IMG/VR virus record: IMGVR_UViG_3300030333_002037
Location: 1 to 28,278 of that record
DNA: 28,278 bases
Source: a virus
Strand: one strand, 5' to 3'
Made by a program: the position numbers and the translations under genes. Position 1 is the stretch's first letter. Each line of letters begins with the position of its first letter. The notes under the pieces were generated by a model. It was not told the DNA's origin, ran no database searches, and saw only the letters and a list, made by a program, of their open reading frames with translations. Below are positions 1,817 through 23,050 of this stretch, one piece after another.

Positions 1817-2115
1817 TGTGTTCCTTTTATAAAATCCCAAACGTGTTTTGCTATTAAACTAAAAAATCCTAGCCCAAAAGCATTTCTCCATTTAGTTGTT
1901 TCCTTTCTAAAATTTGAATTGTCTTTTACCTCTGTCCATATACCTTCTTTTGGATCAAAGAGGTTGTTTTTGATAAAACGAAGATCATCCTTTACTTCGT
2001 CGTGGGCAGACCTATTATCTTCTTTGATTTTTTCAACCTCAGTAAATATTTGCTCTATCTGATATTCTACTATCCTTAGTATTTCTTTAGTTGTTTGATT
2101 TTTATTTGCTGCCAT
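1813..2115 (-). CDS. Small helical protein, possible XhlA-like/holin-associated (100 aa)
   Basis: Residues 1-55 form a charged coiled coil (VEYQIEQIFTEVEKIKEDNR). A short conserved-looking motif follows (FDPKEGIWTEVKDNSNFR). The C-terminus (WRNAFGLGFFSLIAKHVWDF) is an amphipathic or membrane-inserting helix ending in Lys-Gly-Thr-Gln. This layout, coiled coil then one C-terminal membrane helix, resembles XhlA-type and other small lysis-associated phage proteins. It starts 24 bases after the giant gene with no clear Shine-Dalgarno (GAGTGATAATAAAGT leader). Its TGA overlaps the next ATG (ATGA), so the next gene is probably translated by re-initiation. No endolysin is found in the window, so a lysis role is a guess. 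A structural linker is possible. Confidence 0.5.
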   Translation of the reverse strand: MAANKNQTTKEILRIVEYQIEQIFTEVEKIKEDNRSAHDEVKDDLRFIKNNLFDPKEGIWTEVKDNSNFRKETTKWRNAFGLGFFSLIAKHVWDFIKGTQ

Positions 2116-2139: not shown

Positions 2140-5100
2140 TTAATTTATCTTAATATCCTCCATTTTTGCATCACCAATTTTTATTTCAGTTGGAATATTT
2201 TTCTTCTTTTTAGTATCCTTTGGATCCTCAATACCAACCTGCCAAGGTCTATAACCTAATATTATAGCTAGCTTCTGCCAGTTTTCCACCTGCTGTTGGG
2301 TTAACATAGCTCCGTCTTCTGCCATTTCATAAAACTCATGAAAAGGTATGTTTGTTACAGCTTCAGCCGCTAGTAAAGGTGGTTTGAAAGTTGATTCTTT
2401 ATTAAATTTATCTTCTTGTAAAGCACTATAAAACTTTCTTGATTTACTACCTATTGGTGGAGAGAAGTTTAATGCTTCTATTAATACTTTAGCTTGGTCC
2501 GCTTTATAACCTTTTTGTGTTTGTTCAACGTATTCTATGAGTGTATTTTTAAGAGTAGAAACTACAGCACCAGTTAGACCACTACCTCTTAACAGTATAT
2601 CCATCATACCATTACCTATTCTTAACGATTTTTCTGTTATCTCTTTGTCATCAGGATCATAATACGCTGTAAAAGCAGCTTGCTGTAAACCTAAGAACAT
2701 AACATTTTGTACAAGCCCGTAGTATATAATTTTATTTATATTAGTTTGTGTATCACCTCTTTTATTAGCTAAGTCAAGTATAGCTCTGTACATGTTATTG
2801 TTATTCTGTAATGAAACATTTTGAAAGTTTAGTACATATCTACCAATACCACTAGCTTGTTGTTTTGATATTATATCAGGTCTAGTTGATTGCTGTGCTA
2901 TATCAGATGCCTCTTGGAATTTTATAAATGCTTTTTCTTCCGCCTGTTTTTTTGATAACCCTTGCTTTAAAAAGTGATTAACATAATTTCTATAATATGA
3001 AGCTCCACCCATAGCAATAGCAAAGCTGTCAGCTCCTTTTGTAAGTATAAAACCTTTATTTAACAACCAAGATCCAGCTGCTGTTATAGGATCTTTTTTA
3101 TTTTTAGACATATTAGCAAGCTCAGCATAATTAATATCTAATTTATTACCTAACCTTCTTTGCTTTAACATAGGCGAATTAAATATGTAAGCAAAATCTT
3201 TCCAAAATTGCTTAGGGTTTCCAGCAAAAGCGTTTATAGCTCCCAATGCGTCATTTGGTTTACCAAGCGCTTCAATAAAATTAAATGTTGATACTGTTTG
3301 TGTTAACGCTGATCTTCTATTTAAAAACATAACCGTAGCCGTTGCACCTGCAACCCATTTATCCGCAGCTGTTACATCCCTATCACCTTTACCTATATTT
3401 CTACTTGTATCATGTTCCATTCTATATAGTATATCTTCTAGTGATTCTCTATATCTTGTACCATAAATAGCTTCAATTTTATTTAGATTTTCTTCAGTAA
3501 ATATTGCGTTTTTATTTTCTACCCAAGTTTTAAATAACTCTTTTCTATACATAGTATGACCTACGCCTCTAAGATCCTCAGCTATATTACTTTCAACCCA
3601 GTTTTTACCTGGTTTTATATAACCTTCTTTTGTGGATGTTATAATAGAGATTTGATCTGCAAATGCTTTTAGTTCTGGATTTTTATTAACAAAACTTATT
3701 AGTTTAGTTCTATCTGTTTTAGTTAAACCGTGTTTTGTCATATCAATACCTATTTTATCCCAAAGATAAACTCTAGCAGCGTGCTCATATGTATAATCAT
3801 TATAATTAGTATTTTCTTTTAATAACTCTGGTATTTTATCATACGTTTTTAATAGCTCTTTGTAATCACTTCTTAATCTAGTTCTTTCTATATTTAATTG
3901 ATACTGTGCTTTAGCATAAGGTTCAGCTAATACTTTATCAAACCATTCTCTATGTTGATCACCTTTTTTACCTTTTCCAAAAAATTTATAATTTAAAGTT
4001 AAGAAGTGTTGCGCTCCAGGAGGTAACCACCATCTCCACTTACCTATATCCTTACCCTTTTTTCTTGCTGTAGCTGGTGAGAATTTTTTAAATGCTTCAA
4101 CACCAGTTGTTTCCTCTAGCATTAAGTTAAAGTCAGCACTTAAATCTTTCGCAGCTTGAATATTTGCTTCTTGAAGTTTTGAATTTATACCAAGCTTATC
4201 TAATACCTTACCAACAGCATTAACGTTGCTTTTAATATCATCAGTAAAAAACATATCATTATATCCTTTTTCTACTATTTTACCAATAAACCAATTAGCT
4301 TTTGCTTCAGCTCTACCATCTTGTAATGTTACTATATTTTCAACTGGCATATCAACACCATTACGTTTTAACCAATCTCTTATTGCTAGTGTAGCACCGG
4401 GCGCTCTGGCTGTTAAGACATATAAGTGCTTATTACCATGTTGTTCTTGCTGTTGAAGTAAGTGTTTAAATAAAGGTCCTTTTTTATTGCCTAGTATTTT
4501 ATCAAACTGTGAATAATCAAACTCTCCACCTTCTTTTTTTAATTTTTCATACTCTAAAGCAAACTCCTCTGAATTTAGTCGTATTTTTTTACCATTAGGC
4601 ATAGTAACAAGTACCTTTTCAACACCCTCATATAAAGTTCTATCTAAATCATACACACTAGCTCCACTTCTTTTTGCATTAGGATTTAAGTATATTTGTG
4701 CTGCTTCTACTTTAAGGTTTAATAACTCTGCTAGTTGTGATGTGCTCATGTTTGGATCAGCTCTCAATCCAGCTTTAATTACAGCTTTAACATGAGATGC
4801 ATGTGCTGCTGCCCATTTTTTACCTTCTTTATTAGCTTTAATAGCTTTTTCTAATATTATTTTATCTGATTCTGATTTTGATGCTGCGTATCTATACAGT
4901 ACATCTTTAAGGTAAGGTAGATTTAAGTCTTTAATATTTTTATTTAAACTTTGAGCTGTTTCAAGCATTAACTTATCATACAAGGTTGTGTTTTCTATAC
5001 CTTTTTCACCAACCATATAGTAGTCTTTTAGCTTTTCCATTTCAGCTGTAAATCTTGCCATACCACTCACGTTAGTTCTACCACCAACTAAATCTACTAT

Positions 5101-8100
5101 ATCAAACGTTTCAGCTTCTCCTAATACACCTTTGAATGTTCCTATTAACTTTCTACCCTCACTTATAAATCTACCCTCTATAATTGCTTTCGATGTTTCT
5201 AATGATCTTTCTACCATTGATTCTACGTGCTCTAATTTAACCGTTCGTGTTGGTCCACCTGGTAAATACACAGCTGATATAGGTACTAATGCTCTTTCAC
5301 CCATCCTAACATTATCTTGAACTTTACCCATGGTCATGATATGCTGCGCTCTTCTTAAGTATTCTTTTTTAGTTGTAGCTGATTCTAACCACTCTTGTTT
5401 TGATTTGTTCCAATAGTAATATATATCTCTTTTAAGGTTTTCGTTTAACTCTGAAAATTTAGATTCTAATAATAAATCTGCTTCTTCATTTTTACCTTCT
5501 TCTCTTAACTTTAAAGCGTCTTTGTAAGCTTTTGTTAACGAGTTTAAGCTTTTTAAATCTTTCTTTGAAAACTCTAACGTGCTGTTTTTACCTATATTAT
5601 TATAAACGCCAGTTGGGTTCATAAAGTCTTCTATCTTAGTAAAGTTTTTTCCGGTTTTTGATGATATAAGTTGATTAAAACTATCACCTTTTTTATGTTT
5701 ATTAAGACCTGTTGTTCTAAGGTGTAGTCCTAACAAACCGTCTATCATACCTACTGGCATTCCTTTTGGAAGATACTTTACTATCTCCTTAGACATCTCT
5801 ATATATTCCGTGACTTTATCTACATCAACTTCAAAAACTTTTTTACCATCACGGGTTAGGGTTCTAGTTACATATGAAACATTATTAGATGCGTTTTCTA
5901 TATCTGTACTTTTAATTGTTGTTCCATTTTTCAACGTAACATCTTTGTATTCAATTTTGCTTAAATCATAATGAGCAGCGCCTGTTCTACCTGACATAAA
6001 CTTATTATAAGCTGTAGCTTGAACTATACCCTCAACCATATCTACTATTTCTTGCGAGTGTTTATTTCTAAATTTATCTTGATCCTTACTATATTCAGTT
6101 ATATAACCAAGAACTTTAGATTCATTCATACCTGATACTTTACCCCAAATTGTTGATATATCTTTAGCAGCTAAATTAATATAACCACCTGCCATTTGCT
6201 CTAATACCTCTGATTCAACTTCTTCTAGTTTAGCTTTTCTTCTAACTACTGTATTACCTAATAACCTGTTATACATCTCTACCCATCCCCTAGCAAATGC
6301 TTTTTCACCTCTTTTACCCTCTGATTTTAATTGTTCAAATATTTTGTTTATACCTTCTATACCACCTACTTCTTCCCAAGTTTTCATTGTTTTAGCGCCT
6401 GTGCCCTGTCCTGATCTACCTCCAGTAGCTGATGCTCTAGCAATAACATCACTCATTAAGTATCTTTGCATGATTTCAGCAACACCCATTGCTTTACCTG
6501 TGAGAGGATTAACATTACTTGGGGACATGCCATTGAAAATTAATTCAGCAACAGTAATTTTTTTACCATTGTGTTCTACCTTCTCGTTAAGTTTAGCTAT
6601 AACGTTATTAACATCTGCTTGCGTGTAAGCGTTTTTACCTTTAGCTGTTACGCTAAACACTTTATTAGCAAACTCTACTGTAATAGAGCTAAGATCCTTT
6701 TCCATACCTTTAGGATCTCTATATGTAATTTTTTTATCTTTAACAATATCTTCAATTTTTATTACATCCTTTGGATCTATAATTATTCTAGGGTCAACTT
6801 TATTTGATTTTGTTTCTATTTTACCAACATTACCCGCTGTTCCCGAGATTTGTTCAACAACTGACGTTTTTCCTTCGCCAAAAGCTGCATCATCAAGGAT
6901 TTTAAGATCTTTTGTTTCGTTTTTTACAAATTTTCTTAATCTAATTTCTACACCACCTGCTCTGTTATGTATGAAACCACTTAATGTTGAGTCTGGATAT
7001 TTAGCAGGATCAAATGATGCTACTAATTTAGCAAAACCTCCTGATTTAGAACCCATAAACTCCGCTGATATATTTTCAATTTGCGTTTGTGTTAAATCTG
7101 GATAACGATTTTTTAACATAGCTTTTACAACAGGTTCATAATACATACCCGCTACCTCACCAAATTCTACCTTTTGTTCTTTAGACATGTTTTTCCAATC
7201 AACTTCTCTAAATTGATTATTCAAAAAGTCGTTTATTTCTGTTGTTGGGGTTTTCATGTTAAAGCTTTCAGGCATAGTACCCTTACCTGTGCTATTAATA
7301 ATAGTACCAGTAGTTTTTAATAAATTAACAACGTCTTGTATGTTACTACTCTCCACGTTACCAAGAAAAGTATTTTTACTTAATCTAGCCATAGCATTAA
7401 TTAAGTTTACCGTTGAGTTGGTATTTCCCTTCATGCCTAGTGTTTTGCCTAGATCAGCAAATATCTGTTCCATACCTTGCAGTACACCAGCTTGCTTACG
7501 TACTTCAGGTTTAGTTAACAGCTGCATTGCATAACTTAAAAACTCATTATTAAAAGTTATCTTAGCCTCGTTAGTACGCAAATCAAGAAACTTACCATCT
7601 TTACTGCCATAATTTTCTTTAATAAATTGTTTTACAGTTTTTGTGTTTCCATCTTTATCTTTAAATTTAAAGTTGAGTTTTCTTAATTTAAGAGCTAACG
7701 ACCTACTAAAGTTAAGCTGAAACTCAGGATTAACTTTAAAGTAATTACTTAACATAGCGTGGGTTATTTCATGATTAAATAACTCAGCATTAAATTTATT
7801 TTTAAGAACTGTTATTGTGTTTGTTTTAGAGTTGTATTCAGCCACATTACCACTACCAAGACTTTGTGGGTTTTCTGTATATTCTATTTTAATGTCTTCA
7901 AATTTTTCACCAAGAACTTCACGTAGCGCTTTGTTATATGGGTCAACTAATCTTTTCTTGACATTACTTTCAAATTTAGGATTTTCTGGATCTATATCCC
8001 AAGCTTTTGTTGATTCGTTATATGCCAGCTCAGCATCCTTTGCGGCTGACTTGTAAGCGTTATATTTTCTTTGGTACTTTTCTGGAGCTAATCCTAATTG

Positions 8101-10719
8101 AAACATCTCTGCCGCTGACATAGTCATTGGATCTTTTTTATCAAAGCCAAGTGTTTTTTCTTCAGGATTTATTTTTCCTTCCTCTACATCTTTTTCATAT
8201 TGCTTAATTACATCAAACGCGTTTTTGTCATGCTTTATTCTTAAGTTTGCTAAACCATCAATTGTTCTATTCCAAGGTAAATCAGTTAGTTTAACATGTG
8301 TTGCACCTAGCATTTTAAAGTTAATAACAGATACTAACATTCTTTTTTCAAAGTCACTATACTCACCGTATAGTTCATTCCAAACAGTTTTAAAATCTTT
8401 GTTTTTATTTAATATACCTTCTTCAAATATTGTAGACATCTCAGACGCTGACATACCAGTAAAACCTTGTTTAACTACTTTTTGCCATATAGGATCCCAC
8501 ATGGTATTAAGTTTCATTTTTCCACCAGCAACATTCATACCATAAAATATTGTTCCAGTACCAAGACCAAGACCAGCTACATTCATTTTAGCTTCTTCAA
8601 ATATACTATTTACAAAATGACCTTCTAAACGTGTTTGCAAGCTTTTACTTGAGGTCATTTTCATTAACCTATTAGCTACTCCCGTCATCGTTAATGCTGG
8701 GTTTACTACTGCTCCTATAGCACGTAACTTTAATATAATAGGTAAAAAGTGACCAGCACCTTCAGCAATCTCTTCTGATAAAGTTTTTTCTAAGTTTTTT
8801 ATTTGTTTTTTAGTTAATTCAATATTACCAAATTCTGGTCCATATAGCTCGTTATATTCATCTACTAAACCTGAAAAAGTTTGTAACAAAGCATCAGTTC
8901 TATTTTCTTCACCTAGCGTTGCTATTCTATTTGCCTCGTAAGTATTTAAACCACCTATATCTTGCAGTGTAGCTGATACAGCTGTTTGTAAAAAGTTAGG
9001 TATAAAACTTGGTTTTTTGATTTCACCAGGATCTCTATTAACCTCTGCTAAATCATATAAAACATATCTTTCACCAGAGTTTTTTTGCATAGAAGATTTA
9101 TGTAATTCCATCCAGTTGTAATCTTCTTTACTCACTGCTGTTTCTAATTCACTATGGCTTACATCATTTCTCATGCCATATATATCGCTATATGATAATA
9201 CGAGCTTACCATCTTCTATATTGCTTATTTGTTCGTCAGATAAATATTTTTTAACATTTGCCTTTGTTATTTCTGACATTTTATTAGAAGAAAAATCTAT
9301 CTCAATATTTTTTTCTTTGCCTAATTTTAATAAATAATCAAACTCAGCAATTTTGTTTTTTCTTAGCTCAGTTAAACCTTTGTAACGAGACATACCTTCA
9401 GTATCGTTTGATTGGTATACAGCAGTTAAATTCGTATCTAAGCTTTGTAAAAAAGCACCTACGTGGTTAATTACATCATCTGCATCATCTGGATCGTCGT
9501 ACATGTCATAAAACTTAGATGCTAAATCTTTATTAACTTGCGTAATGCCACCGTAGTAACTAGGTAATCCAGTTGCATTTCTTGTTATTTCTTTTTCTAG
9601 TTTATTTATTTCTTCAAGTATTTGATTTTTTTCTACTGCTGATGTTGTATTTTTTAGCTCTTGGCCTAATTCTCTAATTTTAGATACCAACTCTACCTTT
9701 GTTTTTTCTCTATCGTTACGTCTATTAAATTGAGCATTTGTGTCAAGGTTTAATCTATCATCATCAATCTCCCCTTCTAACAATATCGTTTCAAGTCTTT
9801 GTCTTTTTTCTTTATAAGACTGTGTATCTATTACATTATTTAACAAGTTATTTCTTGTCATTATCTTGTTAAAAGAATCTCTATCTAACTTACCACCTAA
9901 AAAAGATGTTTTTCGTAATACTGATTCATATATAGCTTCCTGTACTATATCTAAGTTGTTACCATCTTGCAACCATTGGGTGTCAAACATATTCATATCC
10001 TCTGGTAAATCCGTTATGTATTTACCTGGGTTTGTTACTATACTGGTTGTAAGCTCCTCTATCTTGTCTACTAAATGAAACATACGGTTGGTATATTCCT
10101 TTTCTTTTAGTTTAGGTTTACTACTACCCATACCAGTAGGATTTTCTAAACGATAATATTCATCTTTAGTTAAAGCTGTTTTATTAAATATGTGTGATTT
10201 TTTCGATCTTCTAGATATTGATTCGCCTTCTTTTATAAACTTATCAAATTGTTGAAATGCTATGGGGTTTGGATTTATTGCGTTTGGATCACCAGTTGAC
10301 GTTAGTTTGGATGTGTTTAAATTAACTACTGTTGAGTTTCCCTCTGGGTTTATTACCCTAACTGCATTAGTGCCAAACCTAGCTTGCTTAAATGTAAATT
10401 CTGGATATACTTCTCTAGCTTTTTTTACAAAGCTTTTTTCATCTAATTTAAAATCTTCTTCTGATATAGTTTCTGTTATTCTTTGTCCAACAACAGCAAC
10501 TTCTTCTAAAGCTTGTGTTTCAACGGGCTGTTCTTTTTTTCTTTTATTAAGGTTATTAGTAACAGAATTTGTAAAGTTATACGTTTCTGGATTTATTCTT
10601 TCCAGTTCAGACTCACTTGCCAATATATCATCTAGCTCAATGTCGCTAAGCTGTATGTTGTTCTCGGCGTATAAGTCTTGTATAAACTTTTTTCTATTGT
10701 TACTAATATCTATTGCCAT
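2140..10719 (-). CDS. Giant polyvalent internal virion protein with metallopeptidase and HAD-phosphatase domains (2859 aa)
   Basis: One uninterrupted frame of 2859 codons, the largest gene here, placed last in the cargo module. Visible parts in order are: a charged N-terminus; a possible membrane-interacting region near residues 655-755 with hydrophobic Gly/Ala stretches; an HEITH zinc-peptidase motif at 983-987; a weak sigma-70 region 2-like stretch at about 1185-1290; long helical regions; a HAD phosphatase domain at about 2015-2195; and a C-terminal 650 residues with hydrophobic helices (IIYYGLVQNVMFLGLQQAAF). Large ejected proteins such as T7 gp16 and the crAss-like cargo proteins are threaded into the host. 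Multi-domain 'polyvalent' proteins carry several enzymes that act on the host early in infection. I infer the same here. No lysozyme/transglycosylase or RNA polymerase signature was found. Possible internal cleavage, perhaps by the peptidase itself, cannot be excluded. Confidence 0.7.
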   Translation of the reverse strand: MAIDISNNRKKFIQDLYAENNIQLSDIELDDILASESELERINPETYNFTNSVTNNLNKRKKEQPVETQALEEVAVVGQRITETISEEDFKLDEKSFVKKAREVYPEFTFKQARFGTNAVRVINPEGNSTVVNLNTSKLTSTGDPNAINPNPIAFQQFDKFIKEGESISRRSKKSHIFNKTALTKDEYYRLENPTGMGSSKPKLKEKEYTNRMFHLVDKIEELTTSIVTNPGKYITDLPEDMNMFDTQWLQDGNNLDIVQEAIYESVLRKTSFLGGKLDRDSFNKIMTRNNLLNNVIDTQSYKEKRQRLETILLEGEIDDDRLNLDTNAQFNRRNDREKTKVELVSKIRELGQELKNTTSAVEKNQILEEINKLEKEITRNATGLPSYYGGITQVNKDLASKFYDMYDDPDDADDVINHVGAFLQSLDTNLTAVYQSNDTEGMSRYKGLTELRKNKIAEFDYLLKLGKEKNIEIDFSSNKMSEITKANVKKYLSDEQISNIEDGKLVLSYSDIYGMRNDVSHSELETAVSKEDYNWMELHKSSMQKNSGERYVLYDLAEVNRDPGEIKKPSFIPNFLQTAVSATLQDIGGLNTYEANRIATLGEENRTDALLQTFSGLVDEYNELYGPEFGNIELTKKQIKNLEKTLSEEIAEGAGHFLPIILKLRAIGAVVNPALTMTGVANRLMKMTSSKSLQTRLEGHFVNSIFEEAKMNVAGLGLGTGTIFYGMNVAGGKMKLNTMWDPIWQKVVKQGFTGMSASEMSTIFEEGILNKNKDFKTVWNELYGEYSDFEKRMLVSVINFKMLGATHVKLTDLPWNRTIDGLANLRIKHDKNAFDVIKQYEKDVEEGKINPEEKTLGFDKKDPMTMSAAEMFQLGLAPEKYQRKYNAYKSAAKDAELAYNESTKAWDIDPENPKFESNVKKRLVDPYNKALREVLGEKFEDIKIEYTENPQSLGSGNVAEYNSKTNTITVLKNKFNAELFNHEITHAMLSNYFKVNPEFQLNFSRSLALKLRKLNFKFKDKDGNTKTVKQFIKENYGSKDGKFLDLRTNEAKITFNNEFLSYAMQLLTKPEVRKQAGVLQGMEQIFADLGKTLGMKGNTNSTVNLINAMARLSKNTFLGNVESSNIQDVVNLLKTTGTIINSTGKGTMPESFNMKTPTTEINDFLNNQFREVDWKNMSKEQKVEFGEVAGMYYEPVVKAMLKNRYPDLTQTQIENISAEFMGSKSGGFAKLVASFDPAKYPDSTLSGFIHNRAGGVEIRLRKFVKNETKDLKILDDAAFGEGKTSVVEQISGTAGNVGKIETKSNKVDPRIIIDPKDVIKIEDIVKDKKITYRDPKGMEKDLSSITVEFANKVFSVTAKGKNAYTQADVNNVIAKLNEKVEHNGKKITVAELIFNGMSPSNVNPLTGKAMGVAEIMQRYLMSDVIARASATGGRSGQGTGAKTMKTWEEVGGIEGINKIFEQLKSEGKRGEKAFARGWVEMYNRLLGNTVVRRKAKLEEVESEVLEQMAGGYINLAAKDISTIWGKVSGMNESKVLGYITEYSKDQDKFRNKHSQEIVDMVEGIVQATAYNKFMSGRTGAAHYDLSKIEYKDVTLKNGTTIKSTDIENASNNVSYVTRTLTRDGKKVFEVDVDKVTEYIEMSKEIVKYLPKGMPVGMIDGLLGLHLRTTGLNKHKKGDSFNQLISSKTGKNFTKIEDFMNPTGVYNNIGKNSTLEFSKKDLKSLNSLTKAYKDALKLREEGKNEEADLLLESKFSELNENLKRDIYYYWNKSKQEWLESATTKKEYLRRAQHIMTMGKVQDNVRMGERALVPISAVYLPGGPTRTVKLEHVESMVERSLETSKAIIEGRFISEGRKLIGTFKGVLGEAETFDIVDLVGGRTNVSGMARFTAEMEKLKDYYMVGEKGIENTTLYDKLMLETAQSLNKNIKDLNLPYLKDVLYRYAASKSESDKIILEKAIKANKEGKKWAAAHASHVKAVIKAGLRADPNMSTSQLAELLNLKVEAAQIYLNPNAKRSGASVYDLDRTLYEGVEKVLVTMPNGKKIRLNSEEFALEYEKLKKEGGEFDYSQFDKILGNKKGPLFKHLLQQQEQHGNKHLYVLTARAPGATLAIRDWLKRNGVDMPVENIVTLQDGRAEAKANWFIGKIVEKGYNDMFFTDDIKSNVNAVGKVLDKLGINSKLQEANIQAAKDLSADFNLMLEETTGVEAFKKFSPATARKKGKDIGKWRWWLPPGAQHFLTLNYKFFGKGKKGDQHREWFDKVLAEPYAKAQYQLNIERTRLRSDYKELLKTYDKIPELLKENTNYNDYTYEHAARVYLWDKIGIDMTKHGLTKTDRTKLISFVNKNPELKAFADQISIITSTKEGYIKPGKNWVESNIAEDLRGVGHTMYRKELFKTWVENKNAIFTEENLNKIEAIYGTRYRESLEDILYRMEHDTSRNIGKGDRDVTAADKWVAGATATVMFLNRRSALTQTVSTFNFIEALGKPNDALGAINAFAGNPKQFWKDFAYIFNSPMLKQRRLGNKLDINYAELANMSKNKKDPITAAGSWLLNKGFILTKGADSFAIAMGGASYYRNYVNHFLKQGLSKKQAEEKAFIKFQEASDIAQQSTRPDIISKQQASGIGRYVLNFQNVSLQNNNNMYRAILDLANKRGDTQTNINKIIYYGLVQNVMFLGLQQAAFTAYYDPDDKEITEKSLRIGNGMMDILLRGSGLTGAVVSTLKNTLIEYVEQTQKGYKADQAKVLIEALNFSPPIGSKSRKFYSALQEDKFNKESTFKPPLLAAEAVTNIPFHEFYEMAEDGAMLTQQQVENWQKLAIILGYRPWQVGIEDPKDTKKKKNIPTEIKIGDAKMEDIKIN
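4135..4677 (-). other. HAD-superfamily phosphatase domain inside the giant protein
   Basis: All four HAD motifs are in order: motif I DLDRTL with Asp2024 (nucleophile) and Asp2026 (general acid); motif II VLTAR with Thr2103; a motif III lysine at 2140 or 2147; and motif IV FFTDD with Asp2160-Asp2161. The segment after motif I (LNSEEFALEYEKLKKEGGEF then DYSQFDKIL) has the layout I recall from virus-type HAD proteins with DFDDTL. Arg2027 replaces the usual Asp/Gly in motif I, which may tune specificity but leaves the catalytic residues intact. Confidence 0.8.
6850..7167 (-). other. Possible sigma-70 region 2-like segment inside the giant protein
   Basis: Residues about 1185-1290 show a helix starting at YYEPVVKAML (1193-1202), then FAKLVASFDPAKYPDSTL around FDP at 1236-1238, then GFIHNRAGGVEIRLRKF. 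The order resembles sigma region 2, in which a YxPLV helix is followed by xxxFDPxxGxxFxTYxxxxIR. An acidic linker follows. The resemblance is weak, and the residues that melt promoters are not clearly conserved. Confidence 0.3.
7720..7902 (-). other. Zinc metallopeptidase motif (HEITH) inside the giant protein
   Basis: Residues 983-987 read HEITH (codons at 7773-7759). They are preceded by a beta hairpin-like stretch (YNSKTNTITVLKNKFNAELF) and followed by a helix, the arrangement found in gluzincin/metzincin-type peptidases embedded in phage polyvalent proteins. The third zinc ligand should lie downstream and was not assigned. Only the HExxH core and its local setting support the call. Confidence 0.65.
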
Positions 10720-10721
10720 TG

Positions 10722-12371
10722 TTATTTAATTCTATCGTATCTTTGATTTTCATTAAGAACCTGCTTATCATCAAGCGATCCAGTAATTGCACCAATTAAC
10801 TCGTAAAATCCGCTATAATTATCTGCAGTTAAATCATATGTCCATGACTTAGTTTGTATAGTACCTTGTTGCATACCAGCTTTAACTTTTATTGTTAATA
10901 TACCGTTATCTAGTGTAGCACCTAATATATCTCTATTTTCACCACCTCTTTTTATACTTCTATTCATTAACCAAGTGGTTAAATTTTGACCTGTAGATGG
11001 TACTTTAATATCATCAACTGTGTAACGATCTGGATCAGTATATACTTCCATAAGTTCACTTAAATCATTTTCGTAGTTATTATATAACGTACTTTGATTA
11101 TCTGACTTAATCTCGTAAACAGATTTCTTACTTTCTTTGATTGTAACAGGTTTTCTTTGTTTAACATTTAAAGTTTGTACTTTATGTTCCATTAAATAAT
11201 CTGCTATTTTACTTTTTTGAGCCGTTAAAACAAAATCTGCCATATCAAAATCAGCTGATTCTAATGTAAAACCTACCTCTGAAACGTTATCTTGCTCGTA
11301 TGTTTCTGGGTTTATTCCAAGCTTCTTATCTAATACGCTACCTTTATTTTCATGAAATGTTATTGCTCTTTGCACGTCACCGTAGTTTAGTGAGTTCATC
11401 ATGTTAGCCATTTCTTCACTAAGTTTTACTCTCTTCCCGTTCCATATAACTTCATAACCTTCTTCAAAATCTGATATTTTATCTCCCTCGTTAGCCCATA
11501 TATAATGATTAACACCACCTTCACCATCCCAATCATCTATCAAGTTGTTAAGGTCATTACGAGTTTCTAATAAATGATCTTTATTAACTATATCGTAATT
11601 CATGTTTGGATCTAGGTTTAAAGCGTCGTATAATGAACTTGCTCTATTTTTTTGATCAGTTTCTATTAACTTAACGGCGCTTGCTATAGTTTTTTCTTGA
11701 GAATTACCTGAGCCAGTTTTTTCTCCAGCTTTTACGTTTTCTATCCATTGAGACCAAGTGTCAGAATTAACGGCCTCACCATTTATAGGATTAATAAGAT
11801 CTTTACTGTATATAGAGTGTAAACCAACACCCTCTGGAAGATTTGTTGGATCTACAGCAAAATCAATACCAAATATTTCTTGTATTTCAGTATCACTTAA
11901 TGTTGATAAATTACCCATTATTGCTTTTAACTCATGAGCTCCTTCAATAGACATATCAACCTCATCCCATTTAATAGCATTATTACCAGCTAAGCTATCA
12001 GCTAAACTATTTAAGTGTGTTATTTGGTTTCCAAAGCTAGCCTCAACATCCTTTAACTTGTCCTCACCCCATCCTTGAATTTTAGCTACTGTAGCAATTT
12101 TAGGTACAGCTAAATTTATAGCTGATGTTAGCCCTTTATGTGCATTTGGAATAACTTTATTATATAAGTTACCTCTAAAATCACCGTACTTCTTGGCCCA
12201 GTCTTGTCGCTGTTTAGCAAGTTGCGCTTGTTGAGCTTGAGCCATTTTTTGTGCATTCATCATTGCACCAAAAATTTTATCAAACCAAGTAGCAAAACTG
12301 CTGTGAAAAGCTCTAGTTCCCACGCTTGGATCATTAATACCTCTATATGTTGGATTTTGATATTCTCCCAT
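10722..12371 (-). CDS. Internal virion (cargo) protein of unknown activity (549 aa)
   Basis: I do not recognise a family. Residues 1-30 are non-hydrophobic and aromatic. Residues 35-65 are a Gln/Ala/Lys coiled coil (AQKMAQAQQAQLAKQRQDWA). The remaining 480 residues look largely helical to residue 330, then mixed, with a C-terminal beta-rich part (TLDNGILTIKVKAGMQQGTI). There is no membrane segment and no visible catalytic motif. It lies between the membrane-active protein and the giant protein, with only 2 bases separating its stop from the giant's start. A partner or second ejected cargo protein is therefore likely, by analogy with the three consecutive cargo genes of T7 (gp14-15-16) and crAss-like phages. 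That functional link is an inference from gene order. Confidence 0.55.
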   Translation of the reverse strand: MGEYQNPTYRGINDPSVGTRAFHSSFATWFDKIFGAMMNAQKMAQAQQAQLAKQRQDWAKKYGDFRGNLYNKVIPNAHKGLTSAINLAVPKIATVAKIQGWGEDKLKDVEASFGNQITHLNSLADSLAGNNAIKWDEVDMSIEGAHELKAIMGNLSTLSDTEIQEIFGIDFAVDPTNLPEGVGLHSIYSKDLINPINGEAVNSDTWSQWIENVKAGEKTGSGNSQEKTIASAVKLIETDQKNRASSLYDALNLDPNMNYDIVNKDHLLETRNDLNNLIDDWDGEGGVNHYIWANEGDKISDFEEGYEVIWNGKRVKLSEEMANMMNSLNYGDVQRAITFHENKGSVLDKKLGINPETYEQDNVSEVGFTLESADFDMADFVLTAQKSKIADYLMEHKVQTLNVKQRKPVTIKESKKSVYEIKSDNQSTLYNNYENDLSELMEVYTDPDRYTVDDIKVPSTGQNLTTWLMNRSIKRGGENRDILGATLDNGILTIKVKAGMQQGTIQTKSWTYDLTADNYSGFYELIGAITGSLDDKQVLNENQRYDRIK

Positions 12372-12403: not shown

Positions 12404-13117
12404 TTACGGTCCAGATTTACCAGCTGCCGCTGCTTTTACAGCATACTCTCCAGTTATTTCAGCTGTACCCGCACCCATTAAACCTCCAGCTACTGCGCCA
12501 ACACCTGACATTAACGCTTGTTGTTGTGCCATACCGTATTGATTAGCAGCTTGTTGTTGATTACCCATCATAGCGGCTAAACGGTCTAATTGTTGTATTT
12601 CTCTTTGCTCTTGTGCGCCAAAAACAAACTGAGCACCTTGCATCCTTGCTCCTTGAACTCTAGCAGCTTCTTGCATCATCATACCTTGCATCTGCTGTTG
12701 TCCTTGAGCTCTTAGTCTAGAGTTTTGTGCTTCTTGCTGCTCTATACTAGCGGAAATACCTTGTTTACTTCTTAAAGCAGCCATTGCTAACGCTGTAGCA
12801 CCACCTGCTCCCGCTCCAGTTTGCGTTAATGTATCTAAACTAGTAGCTAAAGCTATATCAGCTTCTTCTGCTTGCATTTCAGCTGCTTGTGTTGCAACTT
12901 GAAGATTAGCAAACGGATTTGTGATCATAGAACTCATGTCTCTGACCTGATCTGATGGATCTATAATTTCTTGTCTAGTTGCTTCTTTTTGCTTTATTTG
13001 CGCTTCATAATCACTAGCTAATGCTTCAGCTTTTCTTCTTTTATTTCTAGCTGAAATTGTACCAGCGATCGTACCTCCGACTGCAACTGCTGCTCCTATT
13101 ATTAATGGTATCGCCAT
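12404..13117 (-). CDS. Internal virion / ejection protein, membrane-active (237 aa)
   Basis: The N-terminus (MAIPLIIGAAVAVGGTIAGT) is a hydrophobic, Gly/Ala-rich helix followed by a basic patch (ARNKRRKAE). The middle is a long Gln/Ala/Met-rich helical region. The C-terminus has another small-residue hydrophobic stretch (LMSGVGAVAGGLMGAGTAE). This pattern matches T7 gp14-type and similar ejection proteins, which leave the virion and help form a channel across the envelope. It is the first of three genes in the cargo module and lies 11 bases after the tail gene. There is no cleavable signal peptide pattern, as expected for a protein packed in the virion. Sequence similarity to T7 gp14 itself is not claimed. 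The call is by architecture and position. Confidence 0.6.
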   Translation of the reverse strand: MAIPLIIGAAVAVGGTIAGTISARNKRRKAEALASDYEAQIKQKEATRQEIIDPSDQVRDMSSMITNPFANLQVATQAAEMQAEEADIALATSLDTLTQTGAGAGGATALAMAALRSKQGISASIEQQEAQNSRLRAQGQQQMQGMMMQEAARVQGARMQGAQFVFGAQEQREIQQLDRLAAMMGNQQQAANQYGMAQQQALMSGVGAVAGGLMGAGTAEITGEYAVKAAAAGKSGP

Positions 13118-13128
13118 AGTTTATAATT

Positions 13129-14472
13129 TTAATTTGATGATTGTTTTGTTTCATTGGACACCGCAAATAACTCAGCTTTAGCTTCATTATTTATAAAGGT
13201 AGGTTCCCAATATTGCATATTAATTTCTAAATACTCACCCTTTAATCCCGTTGAACTAAAGTATGTATTATCATTAAACATGTTAATATTTTTGTTATTT
13301 AACTGTTTAAAATATTTATTTTCTTTTTCGTCAAAACCTACATTAACAGATAAATAACTCTCATCATTTATAGTTACGCCTTTTTTTGGAATTTTATATG
13401 CTTCTTCCGCAATTGCTGTATAGGATGCACCAGACGTGCTATTATCTCTTGATCTTGACTTAGCACTTTCCATAGACCAACCTGACGAACCCTCGTAATT
13501 AATTGTTAAAAAGTTTTTAATTACACTTGGTTGATCATTCATCACCACATCAACATAAGAAGGATCTTTATATGTAGAGTTGTAAAAATTATTTCTTTGC
13601 GTTGATGGATCATAATGTTTAAATAAATTATGTTTATTAAATGTATAAAACTTATTACTTAAGCTAGTACCAAACGTTGGTTTATAAGAAAATAAACTAA
13701 CCCAACCTGTTGATTTTTCTGAATACGATAATGTTAGGTAACCTGATGACGTAACAATAGCAACATTATTATCTGTTGATTTACCACCAGTAATACTACT
13801 GCCTTGCATTGATAAAACGTAAGCATCTTTTACTTCATCATACATACCATATATAGTAGTTGCTTTTTCTAAGTTATCTCTAAAAAAGTCTTTCATACCA
13901 TATTGCGATATTGGCGTTAAACCATCTTGTGATAAACGTAAAACAACACCTCTATTTTTATCTGTAAAATACTTTCTTCCACCAAATGTAGCAAAACTTT
14001 CAGGATTTTTACTAATTCCAAATTTACCTAATATAGGCCTTATATTACCTATAACAACATTACTTAAAGCAGATATTGGTTGACCTTCAGCTGTAAAAAT
14101 AACATCTTTATCCATAGCTGCTTTCATAACTTTATTTTCCTGTAATATAATTAAATCAGTATCTTCAGCGTGTAGTTTTTGTATAGAGCCATTAGCTATA
14201 TCAACAGCTCTTGTTATATCATCACCAATAGGAAATTGGTTTGTGTTATTAACTTTAGTTTTTGAGTTGTAAATACCAGAATGTATTAAGCCATTTTCTC
14301 TTGTTCTAGTTTCATATTCTTCATCAACAACATACGCTCTAACACCAAAGTCTACTGTTTTATCGTTAAAACCACCTTTAATTCTAGATTCTTCAACGTG
14401 CCAGTCGCCAGTAGACGCGCCTCCTGATAAAATAAATGTATTGTAATATCCTATTTCTAATGTTATTGCCAT
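13129..14472 (-). CDS. Probable second half of the tail stabilisation / muzzle protein (447 aa)
   Basis: I start this gene at 14472 (MAITLEIGYYNTFILSGGAS), not at the upstream in-frame ATG at 14562, which lies inside the previous gene and encodes a low-quality peptide. The start follows the previous TAA by 10 bases, with an A/T-rich leader. The protein has blocks that I recall from the C-terminal half of single-chain tail stabilisation proteins of Bacteroidota podoviruses: VEESRIKGGFND, GSIQKLHAEDTDLIILQENK, ISKNPESFATFGGRKYFTD and RGVVLRLSQDGLTPISQYGM. These read like beta-propeller blades. The C-terminus is beta-rich and Asn-rich. No signal or membrane segment is seen. Together with the preceding gene it would rebuild one long muzzle protein, so the two probably assemble in the same complex. 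Confidence 0.65.
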   Translation of the reverse strand: MAITLEIGYYNTFILSGGASTGDWHVEESRIKGGFNDKTVDFGVRAYVVDEEYETRTRENGLIHSGIYNSKTKVNNTNQFPIGDDITRAVDIANGSIQKLHAEDTDLIILQENKVMKAAMDKDVIFTAEGQPISALSNVVIGNIRPILGKFGISKNPESFATFGGRKYFTDKNRGVVLRLSQDGLTPISQYGMKDFFRDNLEKATTIYGMYDEVKDAYVLSMQGSSITGGKSTDNNVAIVTSSGYLTLSYSEKSTGWVSLFSYKPTFGTSLSNKFYTFNKHNLFKHYDPSTQRNNFYNSTYKDPSYVDVVMNDQPSVIKNFLTINYEGSSGWSMESAKSRSRDNSTSGASYTAIAEEAYKIPKKGVTINDESYLSVNVGFDEKENKYFKQLNNKNINMFNDNTYFSSTGLKGEYLEINMQYWEPTFINNEAKAELFAVSNETKQSSN

Positions 14473-14482
14473 AATTTTATAT

Positions 14483-17400
14483 TTAACAAGTTTGTATTGC
14501 ACCTGATCCATTTGCTCCAGATGAATAGCCGTATTTATTATTACCACTACCATAATCAACAAATCTAAAAAATCCAGTTGATGCTGTTTCTGTTGTGTTA
14601 TTTATCCAAAGAACATCACCTTGCCTTAATTGTACCCAACCACCTAACACCTGAGGGTCTGTTGAGTTAGTACCTCTTGATACGTACCAAGTCGCAGCGC
14701 TGTTACTTGTAGAACATATATTATAAGACGCTTGTATTAAGTTACCTGAAACTCTATTTTGTAACTCATTTACTTGACAAAGTTGATTACCATTAACACT
14801 TGATCCATGTGCGTCTGTTACTGTTATAGTAACCCTTCTATCTGTTGGTGATCCAGCAAAAAATGTTGTACCACTAAAGTGACTAGATGTTTTTAATGTA
14901 ATTTGTCCGTTTGATATAGATATAACAAACATAACATTAAACGATGAACTTCCAAAAGTAAATGTAGGCGTTAAGCCTGTTGTGCTTTCAGATGATAACT
15001 TAGCACCATTTGTAGCGCTACAATTTAAAATTACAGTACCTGAAGAAGGGTTTGATACTAAATTTTTAGAAGCTGGTACACCTGTACAAGTTGGTGCTGA
15101 ATTTACAACATTAACTGTTAATTCTTTTGTTGATTGGTATGTGTTGAGTTCAGTACACTTAACTTTTAGCTTATGTGCGTCACGTGTGTTATTAGCAAAA
15201 GCAAAAGCACCAGAACCAGAAACAGTAACAGCTCCGTTAGATGCTACAGAAATTTTACTACTAACATCAGCGCCTAAACCATCTTTAAAAGAAACTAAAT
15301 CCCAATCAAAAGTTGAATTTAAATCATCCGCTACTAACGTTATAACTAAATTTGTGCTACCACCTATAACGCTAGTTGCTACTGTAATAGTATCACCAGC
15401 TTCATAACCAGTACCACCAGCTGTAACAGTAACAGCTGTAACCGCGTTACCACCAACAACAACGGTTATAGCACCACCAACACCATCGCCACTAGTTGTA
15501 AATGTCGCATTAGTATAAGTGTTGTTAGTACCATCTGATGTGTTTGTTGTTATAGATGATGTTAATTCTCCTGATCCTATTTTTAACGCGCCAACACCTG
15601 TTGCTGTAAGTGATCCTACAGCACCATTATTAGCAGTATTTTCTTCTAAACTTGTATCGCTAATAGCTATGTTAGTAGGTCCAACGTTACCCTCTGCAAC
15701 TCTATCATTAAGGTCTTTAATTAAACCACATGTAGATGTCTCATAGTAAATATCTAACTTTGACTCAAATGGTTCTGTCTCGTAAACACTTAAACCTTCA
15801 TTATATCTTGTAAAAAATATTTTATCACCCTTAGCTAATGACTGTTCAATACTATTAGACATTGTAACTACTCTATTTGTATCTGCGTAACTTGCTACGG
15901 TTAAAGTAACACCATCTGGCGTGTTAATATTACCACCAACAATTTTACAACCATCTAAATCTCCAGCATTTCCAATAACCGCCTCTACATTTGTTGTTAA
16001 AACAAAAGTGTTAGAATCTGTCGTTGCGGCGTCTACAATACCTAATACACCAGCCCTATTTTCAACACCAGCATCATAAGTTCCTAAATGCTTTAAATTT
16101 GGTAATTCCGCTATTAAAGGATTTTTATCTGCGCCATAAACAAAGCCTAATACATTGTAACCTCCAATACCTGCATTATCATTATCTGTGAAGTATAAAT
16201 TTTGATCTTTAGCAGTACCTAAACTAACAACATCAATTAAGTCAGTAGCGTTTTGAGATTGTTGAACTGATTGACCATTAGCGTCACTAACAACTTTAGG
16301 GAATAATCTTACTCTTGATCCAGAAACACCTTCCCTTGTTGAATCTACATCCCTAACATCTCTAGGTACTTTATCTATATTATCACCATATAAGCTTAAC
16401 CAACTACTACCTGATAATGTAGCATCTCTTTTACTATCTACATTGTTCCATCCATCAGCAGCATGCGATGTGTATATATTATAATATTCTTGCTCAGATT
16501 GCTTAACAACAACTCTCCATGAATACCAACCATGAGGATTATAATTAGCGCCAACATCTGTTCCTGACGTGGCTTTTTCAAATATATCTGAAGCTGCAGC
16601 AATCGCATCATCTCTAAATGTTATGTCTAATGATTTGCCAATAATACCAGATCTTTCAGTAGACCAACTCCAACTAGAACTGTTAAAGTTGTGAGATAAA
16701 TCTGCTGTCGTTGCTGGTACTGTATAAGTATCTTTAATTTTAGCATCAGCGTCTGTGTTTGTAGATAATAAAACAGGTGACTGTCTACCAAATCTATCAG
16801 AAAACACAATACCTACTTGATATGTTCTACGTTGTTTTATAGAGTGGTATTTATATTGGTTGTTAAGATACTGTATAAATCCATAGTTAAACACGTTACC
16901 ACCAGTGTTATGTTCGTGATCTGATTTAACGGTAGAGTTAATAGTATAATTAACACCTTTATTACCGTTAGAATCTATAGGATAATTATAATGTTCTGTG
17001 TAATTACCATAAATAAGTCTATTACCTGATATTTCTTGTGCTTGAGCTCTTAAAGGTACTTGATCATACACACGTGTTATTTGATCTTCAGGTAGCGTTT
17101 TAAACGGTTTTTCAGAACGATACATAAACTTATAGTTATATCTATAATAAGTATCTCCAGATAATTTTGGCTTTATTGTATATTGTTCTATGGATCCAGT
17201 AAAACCACTACCAGATACTTTAATATCTTTAACAACCTTAACTGATGGACCATCTGATTCTTTTGATAAAATCTCAATATTAGTAATTTTAAGATCGTTA
17301 CTCCATGTACCTGAAGATGTTTTATGCTCATTTAATGATGGTAGCGGAACCCTTAACTCAGCTTGATTGATTTTATTTTGCATTATATCTACAGTTGTTT

Positions 17401-18463
17401 TTTTGTAAATATTCTGCTTACTAGTTGCTACCCTTGGCTCTTCAGCACTTGTACCTGAACCAGTTGCATTTTTAGCATTATCACTCTCCACAACAACACC
17501 ACTATTTAATGGCTCAAATAATATTTGTGTGAATGGTGCTATTGTCGAATATTCACCATCTTCAAACTTATATCTATATGAGAATCTCACAAAATTAAAC
17601 CTTAAGTAATCTGATTTAATACTAGTATCTCTTGATAACACCGAATTACCACTTGAGTCAACTAATTGTATAGGCATGTAAGGTGCTACTTTAGCAACAC
17701 TTATTTGTTCTTCATACTGATAATGCGTAGGGCTTGTTAACGCTTTAGCTATATTTATTTTTCTTGGCTGATTTCTATTATCTGTCCAAAACACCAAATC
17801 ATCAATAATGTTAACACCTGTTATTCTATGGCTTTTGCTAAAGTTTAAAAAATTTCCTTCTACCAATATATTAACACTATCTGTTGTTGTATCATACAAA
17901 ACTATACGGCAAATGTTAGTAGTACTAGGGTATGTCATGCTTCTTATAGCTACATCACCTTCATTGTAATCTGTTACAAAATATACAATTCTTTTGTTTT
18001 TTAAATCTAAACAACTACCTATAACCTCTAAATTAGACGATCCAAACTGTATTGTATTACCTGATAATACCTTTACAGCTTTTGATAAAACTAAATTAAC
18101 ACCATTAATACTTGATACTGTGACATCATCTGGTATATCAAGCGCTATATCAGTACCACTAAAAGCTTTTACAGTTTGCCCAGCTTGTATTAACGCATTA
18201 GATCCTGTTAAAGTGTAGTTGGTTGTTGATGAACCTGGGTAAGACGCAGGTGTTGATTGTGTTATTTTTGATATTAAAAACTTATTTTGATCTGTATATG
18301 GTATTTTATTTCCAAAAACGTTTTCAATAGCTCCAACATTACCATCCTCAGACTCATTGATTAGTATGTTTTGAGCTTCACGATACTCGCCTTTAGGCAA
18401 AACCCTACTATCAAGGTCTTTGTTCATTTTACCCTGTAAAAAAGTATTTTTTATCTCTGCCAT
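14483..18463 (-). CDS. Long tail stabilisation / muzzle-like protein, N-terminal part, with cadherin-like domain (1326 aa)
   Basis: Residues 8-52 carry the hallmark start of P22 gp10-like/crAss muzzle proteins (GKMNKDLDSRVLPKGEYREA, then a VGAIEN-VFGN segment). The gp10-like body includes a Tyr/Arg-rich stretch (HSIKQRRTYQVGIVFSDRFG) and ends near residue 920 in EPFESKLDIYYETSTCGLIK. Two related beta modules lie at residues 83-143 and about 818-886. Residues about 927-1121 resemble a cadherin-like domain (ISDTSLEENTANNGAVGSLT to TVNVVNSAP), interrupted by the GYxxGDTITV module. The C-terminal 90 residues are Gly/Ser/Asn-rich with paired cysteines and a final IQTC, possibly surface-exposed or receptor-facing. 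Canonical relatives, as I recall, continue into a second half that here seems to be the next gene. It probably forms the outer tail tube or muzzle. Confidence 0.75.
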   Translation of the reverse strand: MAEIKNTFLQGKMNKDLDSRVLPKGEYREAQNILINESEDGNVGAIENVFGNKIPYTDQNKFLISKITQSTPASYPGSSTTNYTLTGSNALIQAGQTVKAFSGTDIALDIPDDVTVSSINGVNLVLSKAVKVLSGNTIQFGSSNLEVIGSCLDLKNKRIVYFVTDYNEGDVAIRSMTYPSTTNICRIVLYDTTTDSVNILVEGNFLNFSKSHRITGVNIIDDLVFWTDNRNQPRKINIAKALTSPTHYQYEEQISVAKVAPYMPIQLVDSSGNSVLSRDTSIKSDYLRFNFVRFSYRYKFEDGEYSTIAPFTQILFEPLNSGVVVESDNAKNATGSGTSAEEPRVATSKQNIYKKTTVDIMQNKINQAELRVPLPSLNEHKTSSGTWSNDLKITNIEILSKESDGPSVKVVKDIKVSGSGFTGSIEQYTIKPKLSGDTYYRYNYKFMYRSEKPFKTLPEDQITRVYDQVPLRAQAQEISGNRLIYGNYTEHYNYPIDSNGNKGVNYTINSTVKSDHEHNTGGNVFNYGFIQYLNNQYKYHSIKQRRTYQVGIVFSDRFGRQSPVLLSTNTDADAKIKDTYTVPATTADLSHNFNSSSWSWSTERSGIIGKSLDITFRDDAIAAASDIFEKATSGTDVGANYNPHGWYSWRVVVKQSEQEYYNIYTSHAADGWNNVDSKRDATLSGSSWLSLYGDNIDKVPRDVRDVDSTREGVSGSRVRLFPKVVSDANGQSVQQSQNATDLIDVVSLGTAKDQNLYFTDNDNAGIGGYNVLGFVYGADKNPLIAELPNLKHLGTYDAGVENRAGVLGIVDAATTDSNTFVLTTNVEAVIGNAGDLDGCKIVGGNINTPDGVTLTVASYADTNRVVTMSNSIEQSLAKGDKIFFTRYNEGLSVYETEPFESKLDIYYETSTCGLIKDLNDRVAEGNVGPTNIAISDTSLEENTANNGAVGSLTATGVGALKIGSGELTSSITTNTSDGTNNTYTNATFTTSGDGVGGAITVVVGGNAVTAVTVTAGGTGYEAGDTITVATSVIGGSTNLVITLVADDLNSTFDWDLVSFKDGLGADVSSKISVASNGAVTVSGSGAFAFANNTRDAHKLKVKCTELNTYQSTKELTVNVVNSAPTCTGVPASKNLVSNPSSGTVILNCSATNGAKLSSESTTGLTPTFTFGSSSFNVMFVISISNGQITLKTSSHFSGTTFFAGSPTDRRVTITVTDAHGSSVNGNQLCQVNELQNRVSGNLIQASYNICSTSNSAATWYVSRGTNSTDPQVLGGWVQLRQGDVLWINNTTETASTGFFRFVDYGSGNNKYGYSSGANGSGAIQTC
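15329..15490 (-). repeat. Dispersed GYxxGDTITV module, copy B (inside the long tail gene)
   Basis: Encodes residues 992-1045, with GGTGYEAGDTITVATSV and NLVITLVAD matching copy A at 19853-20035 in motif order. It sits inside the cadherin-like domain: the residues before it end a TATG strand and those after it resume with FDWDLVS. This suggests a module inserted into a pre-existing fold. DNA similarity to copy A remains visible, which suggests fairly recent exchange or duplication. Confidence 0.75.
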
Positions 18464-21604: not shown

Positions 21605-23050
21605 TTAGCTATTAAACAATACGAAATTGTTAGCTCCTTGTACTACTAAACATCTTTCAGATAAATAGTGTACTTCCATCTTATCATCACCAGTTGTAGC
21701 AGCTCCTACTGAACCAGTAACCCAAGATTTTAACTTTCTATTGTCAGCTTCAGAAGCTCTGTATCTGACGTGTAAGAAAGGTCTCTTCATGTTTCTACCC
21801 ATAGATTGATCGTAAACAGAAGTTGTACCAGCAGGTACTAAAACTCCTTCAACACCACCAACAGTAGCTGATGTATTTACAAGTCCTCTAGTAGAAGCGT
21901 CATTTAAGTATTTCCAGTCAGTTTTATAGAAGTCATAAGAACCTCTTCTAAAACCAGTGAAACCTAAATTAAGTGCCATGTCTTCTGAATTATTGAATAA
22001 TCCATAAGCAGTACCACCTTGTGATCCTGAAGAAATATTTGCTAACATACCATCGATGTTAATAGACGCGTCTCTTCCTAAGAACATAGCGTTTTCTTCG
22101 ATAGCTCCCTGAGCATCTAACTCTTTTAACAATAAGTCAAAATCCGCTAGAGTATCAGTTGAGTCATCAAATTGATTTGTAGCTTCAATACCTCTTGCTT
22201 TTATTGCAGCAAATAATCCTTCTGAACCAGCAGGAATATCAGCAGCAGCATTAGCGTGAGATTTTTCAGCTTCCATCATTACCATTTCTAAGTAATCATC
22301 AAATCTTTTTCTAGTATCACCTTCAGACTTGATATACCATAGGTAACCATTCTGTCCGTTTTCACCAGAAACTTCAACCCAACCAATTTGAGCAGTATCA
22401 GAACCTGATATTTCAAAATGATCCTTTATAATAACTGGAGAGTTATCAAAAGTTTTGAAATTTGGCTCAACTGACTCAGTGATATTAGCTGTTCCTTTTC
22501 CGAAATCTGAACCATAAACGAAGAACTTGATGTTATCAGCTGTGTTATCTACAGCGATGTTAGCAAGATCATCGAAGTGCTCAGCACCATAAGGTCTTAA
22601 AGTTAATGCGTTAGTAGCTGTTTCGATACCAGCAGTACAGTATGCTTTAACTACTTTGTAGTCAGAACCAGTTTTGATTTGACATACGACAGTAGCACCT
22701 TTTCTCACAGCGTGAGCTTCAGTAGCACCAGAGTCTATACCTTTAATAGCTGTAACTTGACCAGTTGCAGTATTAACTTTACCTTGATAAGCTAAATGAA
22801 GTCTACCTTGTTCTGACCAAATAACTTGATCTGAAGCCATAGCTTCTTCAGCTCCAATTGTTCTAAGAAAAGATCCAATAGATCTATTTCCATATCTTTC
22901 AACCTCAGCTTCGTATAGTTCAGGCATATATTGTTGTGCCCAACCACCAGCTACGTTGAAATCTAAGTAACTACCCGCAGTCGTCATTTTTTGCGCTGAA
23001 GGAGTTACAATGCTGTCCGCCAATGGGCCAGCAAAACTTGCAGTTGCCAT
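21605..23050 (-). CDS. Major capsid protein (probable)
   Basis: A 481-residue protein expected to build the icosahedral shell. It begins MATASFAGPLADSIVTPSAQ and has a long N-terminal arm. The central region is beta-rich, with a hinge-like helix near residues 250-275 (YLEMVMMEAEKSHANAAADI). The C-terminal segment contains an arginine cluster (MGRNMKRPFLHVRYR), reminiscent of the HK97-fold P-domain. Position after portal and scaffold, length, and richer base composition with less A/T-biased codons than its neighbours all fit a very highly expressed capsid gene. It is also the only gene followed by a strong intrinsic terminator (21561-21596). The start follows an A/T-rich leader, with no Shine-Dalgarno. 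I did not recognise a signature specific to one capsid family, so the call is mainly synteny and composition. Confidence 0.8.
   Translation of the reverse strand: MATASFAGPLADSIVTPSAQKMTTAGSYLDFNVAGGWAQQYMPELYEAEVERYGNRSIGSFLRTIGAEEAMASDQVIWSEQGRLHLAYQGKVNTATGQVTAIKGIDSGATEAHAVRKGATVVCQIKTGSDYKVVKAYCTAGIETATNALTLRPYGAEHFDDLANIAVDNTADNIKFFVYGSDFGKGTANITESVEPNFKTFDNSPVIIKDHFEISGSDTAQIGWVEVSGENGQNGYLWYIKSEGDTRKRFDDYLEMVMMEAEKSHANAAADIPAGSEGLFAAIKARGIEATNQFDDSTDTLADFDLLLKELDAQGAIEENAMFLGRDASINIDGMLANISSGSQGGTAYGLFNNSEDMALNLGFTGFRRGSYDFYKTDWKYLNDASTRGLVNTSATVGGVEGVLVPAGTTSVYDQSMGRNMKRPFLHVRYRASEADNRKLKSWVTGSVGAATTGDDKMEVHYLSERCLVVQGANNFVLFNS

Follow-up and report, generated by a model that had tools for sequence, protein, structure and literature searches.

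A giant multidomain protein encoded among the virion genes of a crAss-like marine Bacteroidota phage, probably of the polyvalent, ejected kind

INTRODUCTION

Polyvalent proteins, known from phages and from conjugative elements, are a class thought to be injected into the host; their commonest domain is a zincin-like peptidase, for which lethal factor served Iyer et al. (2017) as the reference (PMC5512222). PhicrAss001 gp47 is a cargo protein that has been detected in virions by mass spectrometry (PMC10172136), and the virion RNA polymerase (vRNAP) of phage N4 closes with a large helical domain that is preceded by an HExxH domain (PMC12633501).

Here, we describe a giant protein that shares features with each of these systems and combines them with others. 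Its gene lies in a window of 28,278 nucleotides, which is the whole stretch of DNA analyzed (positions 1 to 28,278 of IMG/VR record IMGVR_UViG_3300030333_002037, a virus record of 39,297 bases). On one minus-strand chain it carries a zincin, a segment resembling sigma-70 region 2, a complete HAD phosphatase, and a helical C terminus of 635 residues.

RESULTS

The giant gene closes a block of virion genes

All large genes of the window lie on the minus strand. They run from TerL through the portal, 404-aa, capsid-like, 258-, 340-, 400-, 1326-, 477-, 237-, and 549-aa genes to the giant; beyond the giant follow four small or unassigned genes. The genes that define this neighborhood are as follows.

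24314..26722, minus strand: portal (phrog_6547, E 1.9e-142)
21605..23050, minus strand: major-capsid-like virion protein (phrog_13704, E 1.3e-98)
14483..18463, minus strand: 1326-aa virion structural, muzzle-like frame (phrog_14478, E 5.9e-55)
13129..14562, minus strand: 477-aa frame P0009 with the crassvirus muzzle C-terminal domain (Pfam crAss_MUZ_C, E 3e-8, above the cut-off)
12404..13117, minus strand: 237-aa gene, first of a presumed ejection-protein triad, at the position of crAss001 gp45 (synteny; 80 IMG/VR homologs kept)
10722..12371, minus strand: 549-aa gene, second of the presumed triad, at the position of crAss001 gp46 (synteny with relatives)
2140..10719, minus strand: giant protein gene P0001, 2859 aa (open frame with an ATG start; full-length relative L098)

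The crAss_MUZ_C domain in the 477-aa frame indicates that the virion is crAss-like. After the muzzle comes a set of three genes with the giant in last place, matching gp45-gp46-gp47 of PhicrAss001, and this bears out the placement among ejected cargo proteins made in the initial annotation. Flavobacterium elemovirus, Cellulophaga Callevirus and Baltivirus, Maribacter phage Panino, and record ctfjg026 share this gene order, each with a giant gene at the equivalent place (1691 to 3859 aa). At this position, gp101 of Cellulophaga phi40:1 and gp123 of phi18:3 are annotated as structural proteins from MS/MS. Of the domains of the giant, only the zincin is detectable in any positional counterpart, namely in those of elemovirus (E 4e-18) and ctfjg026 (E 2e-6).

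Several other features of these loci deserve mention. In the window, the muzzle-like protein is divided between frames P0003 and P0009, which overlap at 14483-14562; most relatives have a single longer muzzle frame, and the split in the window is a frameshift, either programmed or an assembly error. Window 725-1840 encodes a protein of 371 aa that begins with a signal-peptide-like stretch and is barrel-like in composition; it may be an outer-membrane protein and has no match in Pfam or among 50,697 phage records. One related locus (L002, 4133-11296) has a fiber frame of at least 2387 aa whose C terminus resembles the S74 endosialidase chaperone.

Four modules recur in one order among uncultured relatives

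The frame of the giant protein, claimed earlier as multidomain with no strand given, is real and divides into the following parts.

8350..8952, minus strand: conserved region in the N-terminal half, residues 590-790 (65% identical in L098)
7360..7866, minus strand: zincin-like metallopeptidase domain, residues 952-1120 (invariant H, E, H, E; 103 of 105 complete giants)
7759-7773, minus strand: HEITH motif, residues 983-987, with E1059 as third ligand (38-sequence alignment)
6820..7140, minus strand: sigma-70 region-2-like segment, residues about 1194-1300 (...KLVASFDPAKYPDSTLSGFIHNR...) (family profile, L111, and sigma-32 structural match)
4153..4680, minus strand: HAD phosphatase domain, residues 2014-2189 (motifs invariant in 24 relatives; structural match to the T4 Pnkp 3'-phosphatase)
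2230..4134, minus strand: conserved helical C-terminal domain, residues 2196-2830 (HAD plus C-terminus query reaching at least 579 IMG/VR loci; BFVD fold matches)

As a direct query, the whole window protein found no relatives. The 237-aa neighbor gene recruited 80 IMG/VR loci, most of them with a giant gene downstream where the contig was long enough, and the HAD plus C-terminus query recruited at least 579. A relative's HAD plus C terminus had no match in 50,697 phage and 72,556 plasmid records. One full-length relative is that of L098, a protein of 2931 aa that is 55% identical from end to end; by region, identity is 81% in the HAD, 71% in the C terminus, 53% in the zincin, and 45% in the sigma core. 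Metagenome-assembled contigs titled Aliivibrio and Woesearchaeota (L090, L092, and L091) also bear a giant gene and are probably mis-binned phage contigs.

Of 105 giants with a full C terminus, 103 have a profile match to the zincin, 97 to the HAD, and 91 to the sigma-like segment, the last count including iteration (67 of 105 without it). Since selection biases the HAD frequency in the set recruited by HAD plus C terminus, the giants with full C termini reached solely through the neighbor gene were counted apart: 22 of these 24 have the zincin, 18 the HAD, and all 24 the sigma-like segment. By these counts, the enzyme modules can be lost one by one. Three natural relatives (L046, L083, and L087) have giants that lack HExxH and retain the C terminus. 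Wherever all four modules are present (82 giants), their order is zincin, sigma-like segment, HAD, and C terminus, without exception. Judged by profile matches, the sigma-like segment and the C terminus are the most constant modules, and the predicted arrangement of zincin, sigma-like segment, and HAD recurs across dozens of uncultured relatives; none of the modules is a chance motif.

The zincin and the HAD phosphatase have conserved catalytic residues

H983, E984, H987, and E1059 are the sole invariant columns in the alignment of 38 relatives, which upholds the HEITH metallopeptidase proposed from the sequence. The predicted fold is similar to those of lethal factor, selecase, and IrrE, with weak Z scores of 4 to 5.

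The HAD domain has all four motifs (D2024-x-D2026-x-T2028, LTAR at 2102-2105, K2140, and D2160-D2161), invariant in 24 aligned relatives, so that the full HAD phosphatase claimed in the initial annotation is present. Structure comparison places the T4 Pnkp 3'-phosphatase (Z 8.8 over 119 of 143 residues) and Pnkp1 at the top, equal with a Nir2 domain at Z 8.8, and most of the match list consists of HAD structures, supporting the fold. A structural counterpart is thus found for the HAD and, at the weak level given above, for the peptidase. The models of giant pieces are of moderate quality (pLDDT 71 and 62), and Foldseek alone against the PDB gave no E below 0.001 for either. In sequence, the best PHROG match of the HAD is a weak one to phrog_415, polynucleotide kinase, and the HAD profile had no match to PDB sequences.

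Eleven relatives (L024, L090, L092, L125, L127, L128, L131, L138, L153, L166, and L175) have an insertion between HAD motifs I and II, a P-loop kinase (AAA_33, E 2e-16) about 195 residues long; the window giant has no such kinase. The presence of the kinase inside the HAD makes a kinase-phosphatase pair as in Pnkp and favors a Pnkp-like role. Apparent second HAD copies in L015, L025, L029-L032, and L035 were rejected as profile drift, lacking DxD where inspected.

The sigma-like segment is recognizable at the level of the family

The sigma-like segment suggested from the sequence stands for the family, through profile matches to sigma factors in the PDB, and not for the window copy on its own, which is divergent and had no match in a single-sequence Pfam search. 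Used alone as a search seed, the window segment found nothing; only the family profile succeeded. A 40-sequence profile retrieved from the PDB a sigma factor (E 1.6e-4) and sigma-K (E 0.002), and sigma factors make up 7 of its 10 best matches. A profile of 15 of these sequences likewise matched a sigma factor (E 7.6e-4), and a reversed control of the 15 retrieved no sigma factors from the PDB. The strongest sigma match comes from L111, whose segment aligns to positions 1-67 of 71 in Pfam Sigma70_r2 (PF04542) at E 1.4e-6 and, with 28.4 bits, exceeds the cut-off of 24; a genome-wide search recovers the match inside a 2406-aa frame. Alignment to ECF sigmas with hhalign gave E 3e-4, compared to 0.68 for the reversed sequence, at a low probability of 17. 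A template-free model has as its first structural match sigma-32, at Z 6.4 with an rmsd of 3.1 across 93 residues; this score is under Z 8 and below the level sufficient by itself. Cellular sigma HMMs run against the giants were rejected as evidence, their scores being inseparable from those of reversed sequences.

Searches of the giants with cellular and phage sigma profiles found no region 4 clear of the reversed control. T4 gp55 has a region-2-like core, lacks a canonical region 4, and is functional nonetheless; for this reason a lone region 2 may suffice to select promoters. A sigma-family match above the cut-off occurs in 16 of 20 related records, nearly always in a separate gene of 250 aa that has both regions 2 and 4; this standalone factor is seen in related phage records L214-L230. 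The standalone sigmas show no special similarity to the giant segment, and we make no claim that the segment originated from them. No T7-like or crAss-like RNA polymerase was found in the related records by searches that included PF00940 and had no positive control, and P0001 has no Pfam RNA polymerase match. In the literature, of which our coverage was incomplete, we found no virion-borne sigma factor.

The C terminus shares a fold with other phage proteins

The predicted fold of the C-terminal domain matches pieces of many phage proteins in BFVD (E 1e-7 to 2e-5, 11-13% identity), including C-terminal parts of proteins named polyvalent, MuF, or ART-PolyVal. By sequence, the domain had no match in the PDB or Pfam, no relationship to a named LPD domain was found, and the PolyVal and LPD Pfam models did not match the giant.

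The membrane-active helices claimed in the initial annotation proved weak. The highest 19-residue Kyte-Doolittle mean, 1.57 at residues 658-676 within the conserved 590-790 region, is borderline for a transmembrane helix, and no strong membrane helix was found on this scale.

DISCUSSION

We observed directly the domains of the giant protein with their conserved catalytic residues, the invariable order of these domains, and the place of the gene; packaging, ejection, cleavage, RNA polymerase binding, and substrate we infer. On balance, we favor the reading of the giant as an ejected polyvalent cargo protein of a crAss-like, podovirus-type marine Bacteroidota phage, which seems to us somewhat better than an even bet. 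The giant would be stored in the head, third and last among the ejection proteins, and would enter the host with the DNA or ahead of it, the helical C terminus (2196-2830) acting as a constant packaging or ejection module. The zincin (952-1120) may cleave the giant chain into working pieces or may cleave a host protein; the sigma region-2-like domain (1194-1300) may dock on the clamp of the host RNA polymerase and, once docked, either favor phage early promoters or block the host sigma; and the HAD (2014-2189) may strip 3' phosphates from broken DNA or RNA ends. T4 Pnkp removes 3' phosphates in the repair of cleaved tRNA. A more specific proposal, in which the zincin frees a virion-delivered sigma-70 region-2 domain that redirects the host RNA polymerase ahead of all phage gene expression, is tentative and, taken alone, rather doubtful.

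The case for packaging and ejection is one of gene position, shared with counterparts that are confirmed by mass spectrometry and are not detectably homologous to the giant, and other readings must be weighed. The giant might be mainly a structural protein of ejection or DNA translocation, like T7 gp16, with enzymes that process virion proteins or its own chain and with the sigma-like domain as a scaffold, a reused helical fold making no contact with RNA polymerase. Such a protein would fit the comparison with L098, where the C terminus (71%) is far more conserved than the sigma core (45%), and a sigma segment that is divergent in the window and has no region 4 partner, and N4 vRNAP likewise pairs an HExxH domain with a large helical C terminus (PMC12633501). 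It fits poorly, however, with invariant HAD motifs in what is the most conserved domain in L098 (81%), and with a sigma-like segment retained in every one of the 24 neighbor-anchored giants with full C termini; we regard it as unlikely.

Two further readings were weighed. If the sigma-like domain were an inhibitor or decoy on the polymerase clamp, it would shut off host transcription instead of selecting promoters; no region 4 was found that could recognize a -35 element, and the complete 250-aa sigma factor encoded separately in relatives could take over promoter selection, but the precedent of T4 gp55 shows a region-2-like core working without a canonical region 4, and we consider the decoy improbable. 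The giant could also be expressed late and do its work inside the cell that makes it, for instance in the maturation of the prohead or tail, and never be ejected. Its gene does lie in the late block, and zincin-like peptidases are suspected of a role in the virion maturation of other phages (PMC7824862); nevertheless, the positional counterparts are present in finished virions and the polyvalent class is thought to be injected (PMC5512222), so that a role confined to the producing cell appears very improbable.

The ejected-cargo reading would have several consequences. Phages are known to reach immediate transcription through virion RNA polymerases (N4 and PhiKZ) or injected polymerase modifiers (T4 Alt), and a virion sigma domain released by a zincin would, if true, be a third route. 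A sigma-like domain on a probable ejected protein offers a concrete and testable proposal for how transcription starts in crAss-like phages with no detected RNA polymerase. The HAD with its optional inserted kinase suggests end repair delivered at entry, possibly against nuclease-based defence, and the giant may let the virus seize its host at that moment. With at least 579 loci and no match in 50,697 phage records, the giant would be a widespread and unstudied infection device of marine Bacteroidota phages.

Comparison with known systems

Proteins of the polyvalent kind are already known; the domain combination of the giant, including a possible virion-delivered sigma fragment, is unreported, and we found no description in the literature of the fixed order zincin, sigma-like segment, HAD, and C terminus. 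The giant resembles the polyvalent proteins (PMC5512222) as a giant multidomain protein adjoining virion genes, with a zincin of lethal-factor-like fold and a C-terminal fold common to annotated polyvalent phage proteins. By the features that define the class, it has at least two biochemically unrelated domains on one chain (zincin, HAD, and sigma-like), a gene among virion genes, and an HExxH zincin with a glutamate on a later helix (H983, E984, H987, and E1059). It differs in that the main text of PMC5512222 does not mention sigma factors or phosphatases; the sigma region-2-like domain and the Pnkp-like phosphatase in a fixed arrangement are new relative to that text.

PhicrAss001 gp47 is likewise the third gene product after the muzzle gene, similar in size (2341 aa), and has an HExxH at residue 2157, but it is annotated as RNA-polymerase-associated and has no HMM or BLAST homology to the giant. 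Its HExxH region (gp47 at L209 1120-8145) is not detectably related to the window zincin. The N4 virion RNA polymerase (Schitoviridae), a last-ejected protein of about 3500 residues, shares the HExxH and the large helical C terminus, whereas the giant has the sigma-like and HAD domains and no detected RNA polymerase domain. The T4 Pnkp 3'-phosphatase shares the HAD fold, and some relatives of the giant add a P-loop kinase; this kinase lies within the HAD, while that of Pnkp is N-terminal, and the window giant is without it. Cellulophaga phi40:1 gp101 and phi18:3 gp123 share the gene position and have a structural annotation from MS/MS but no detectable zincin, sigma-like, HAD, or C-terminal domains; Flavobacterium elemovirus gp18 shares the position and the zincin (E 4e-18), yet not, at a detectable level, the other three. 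Overall, the giant probably belongs with the polyvalent, ejected proteins.
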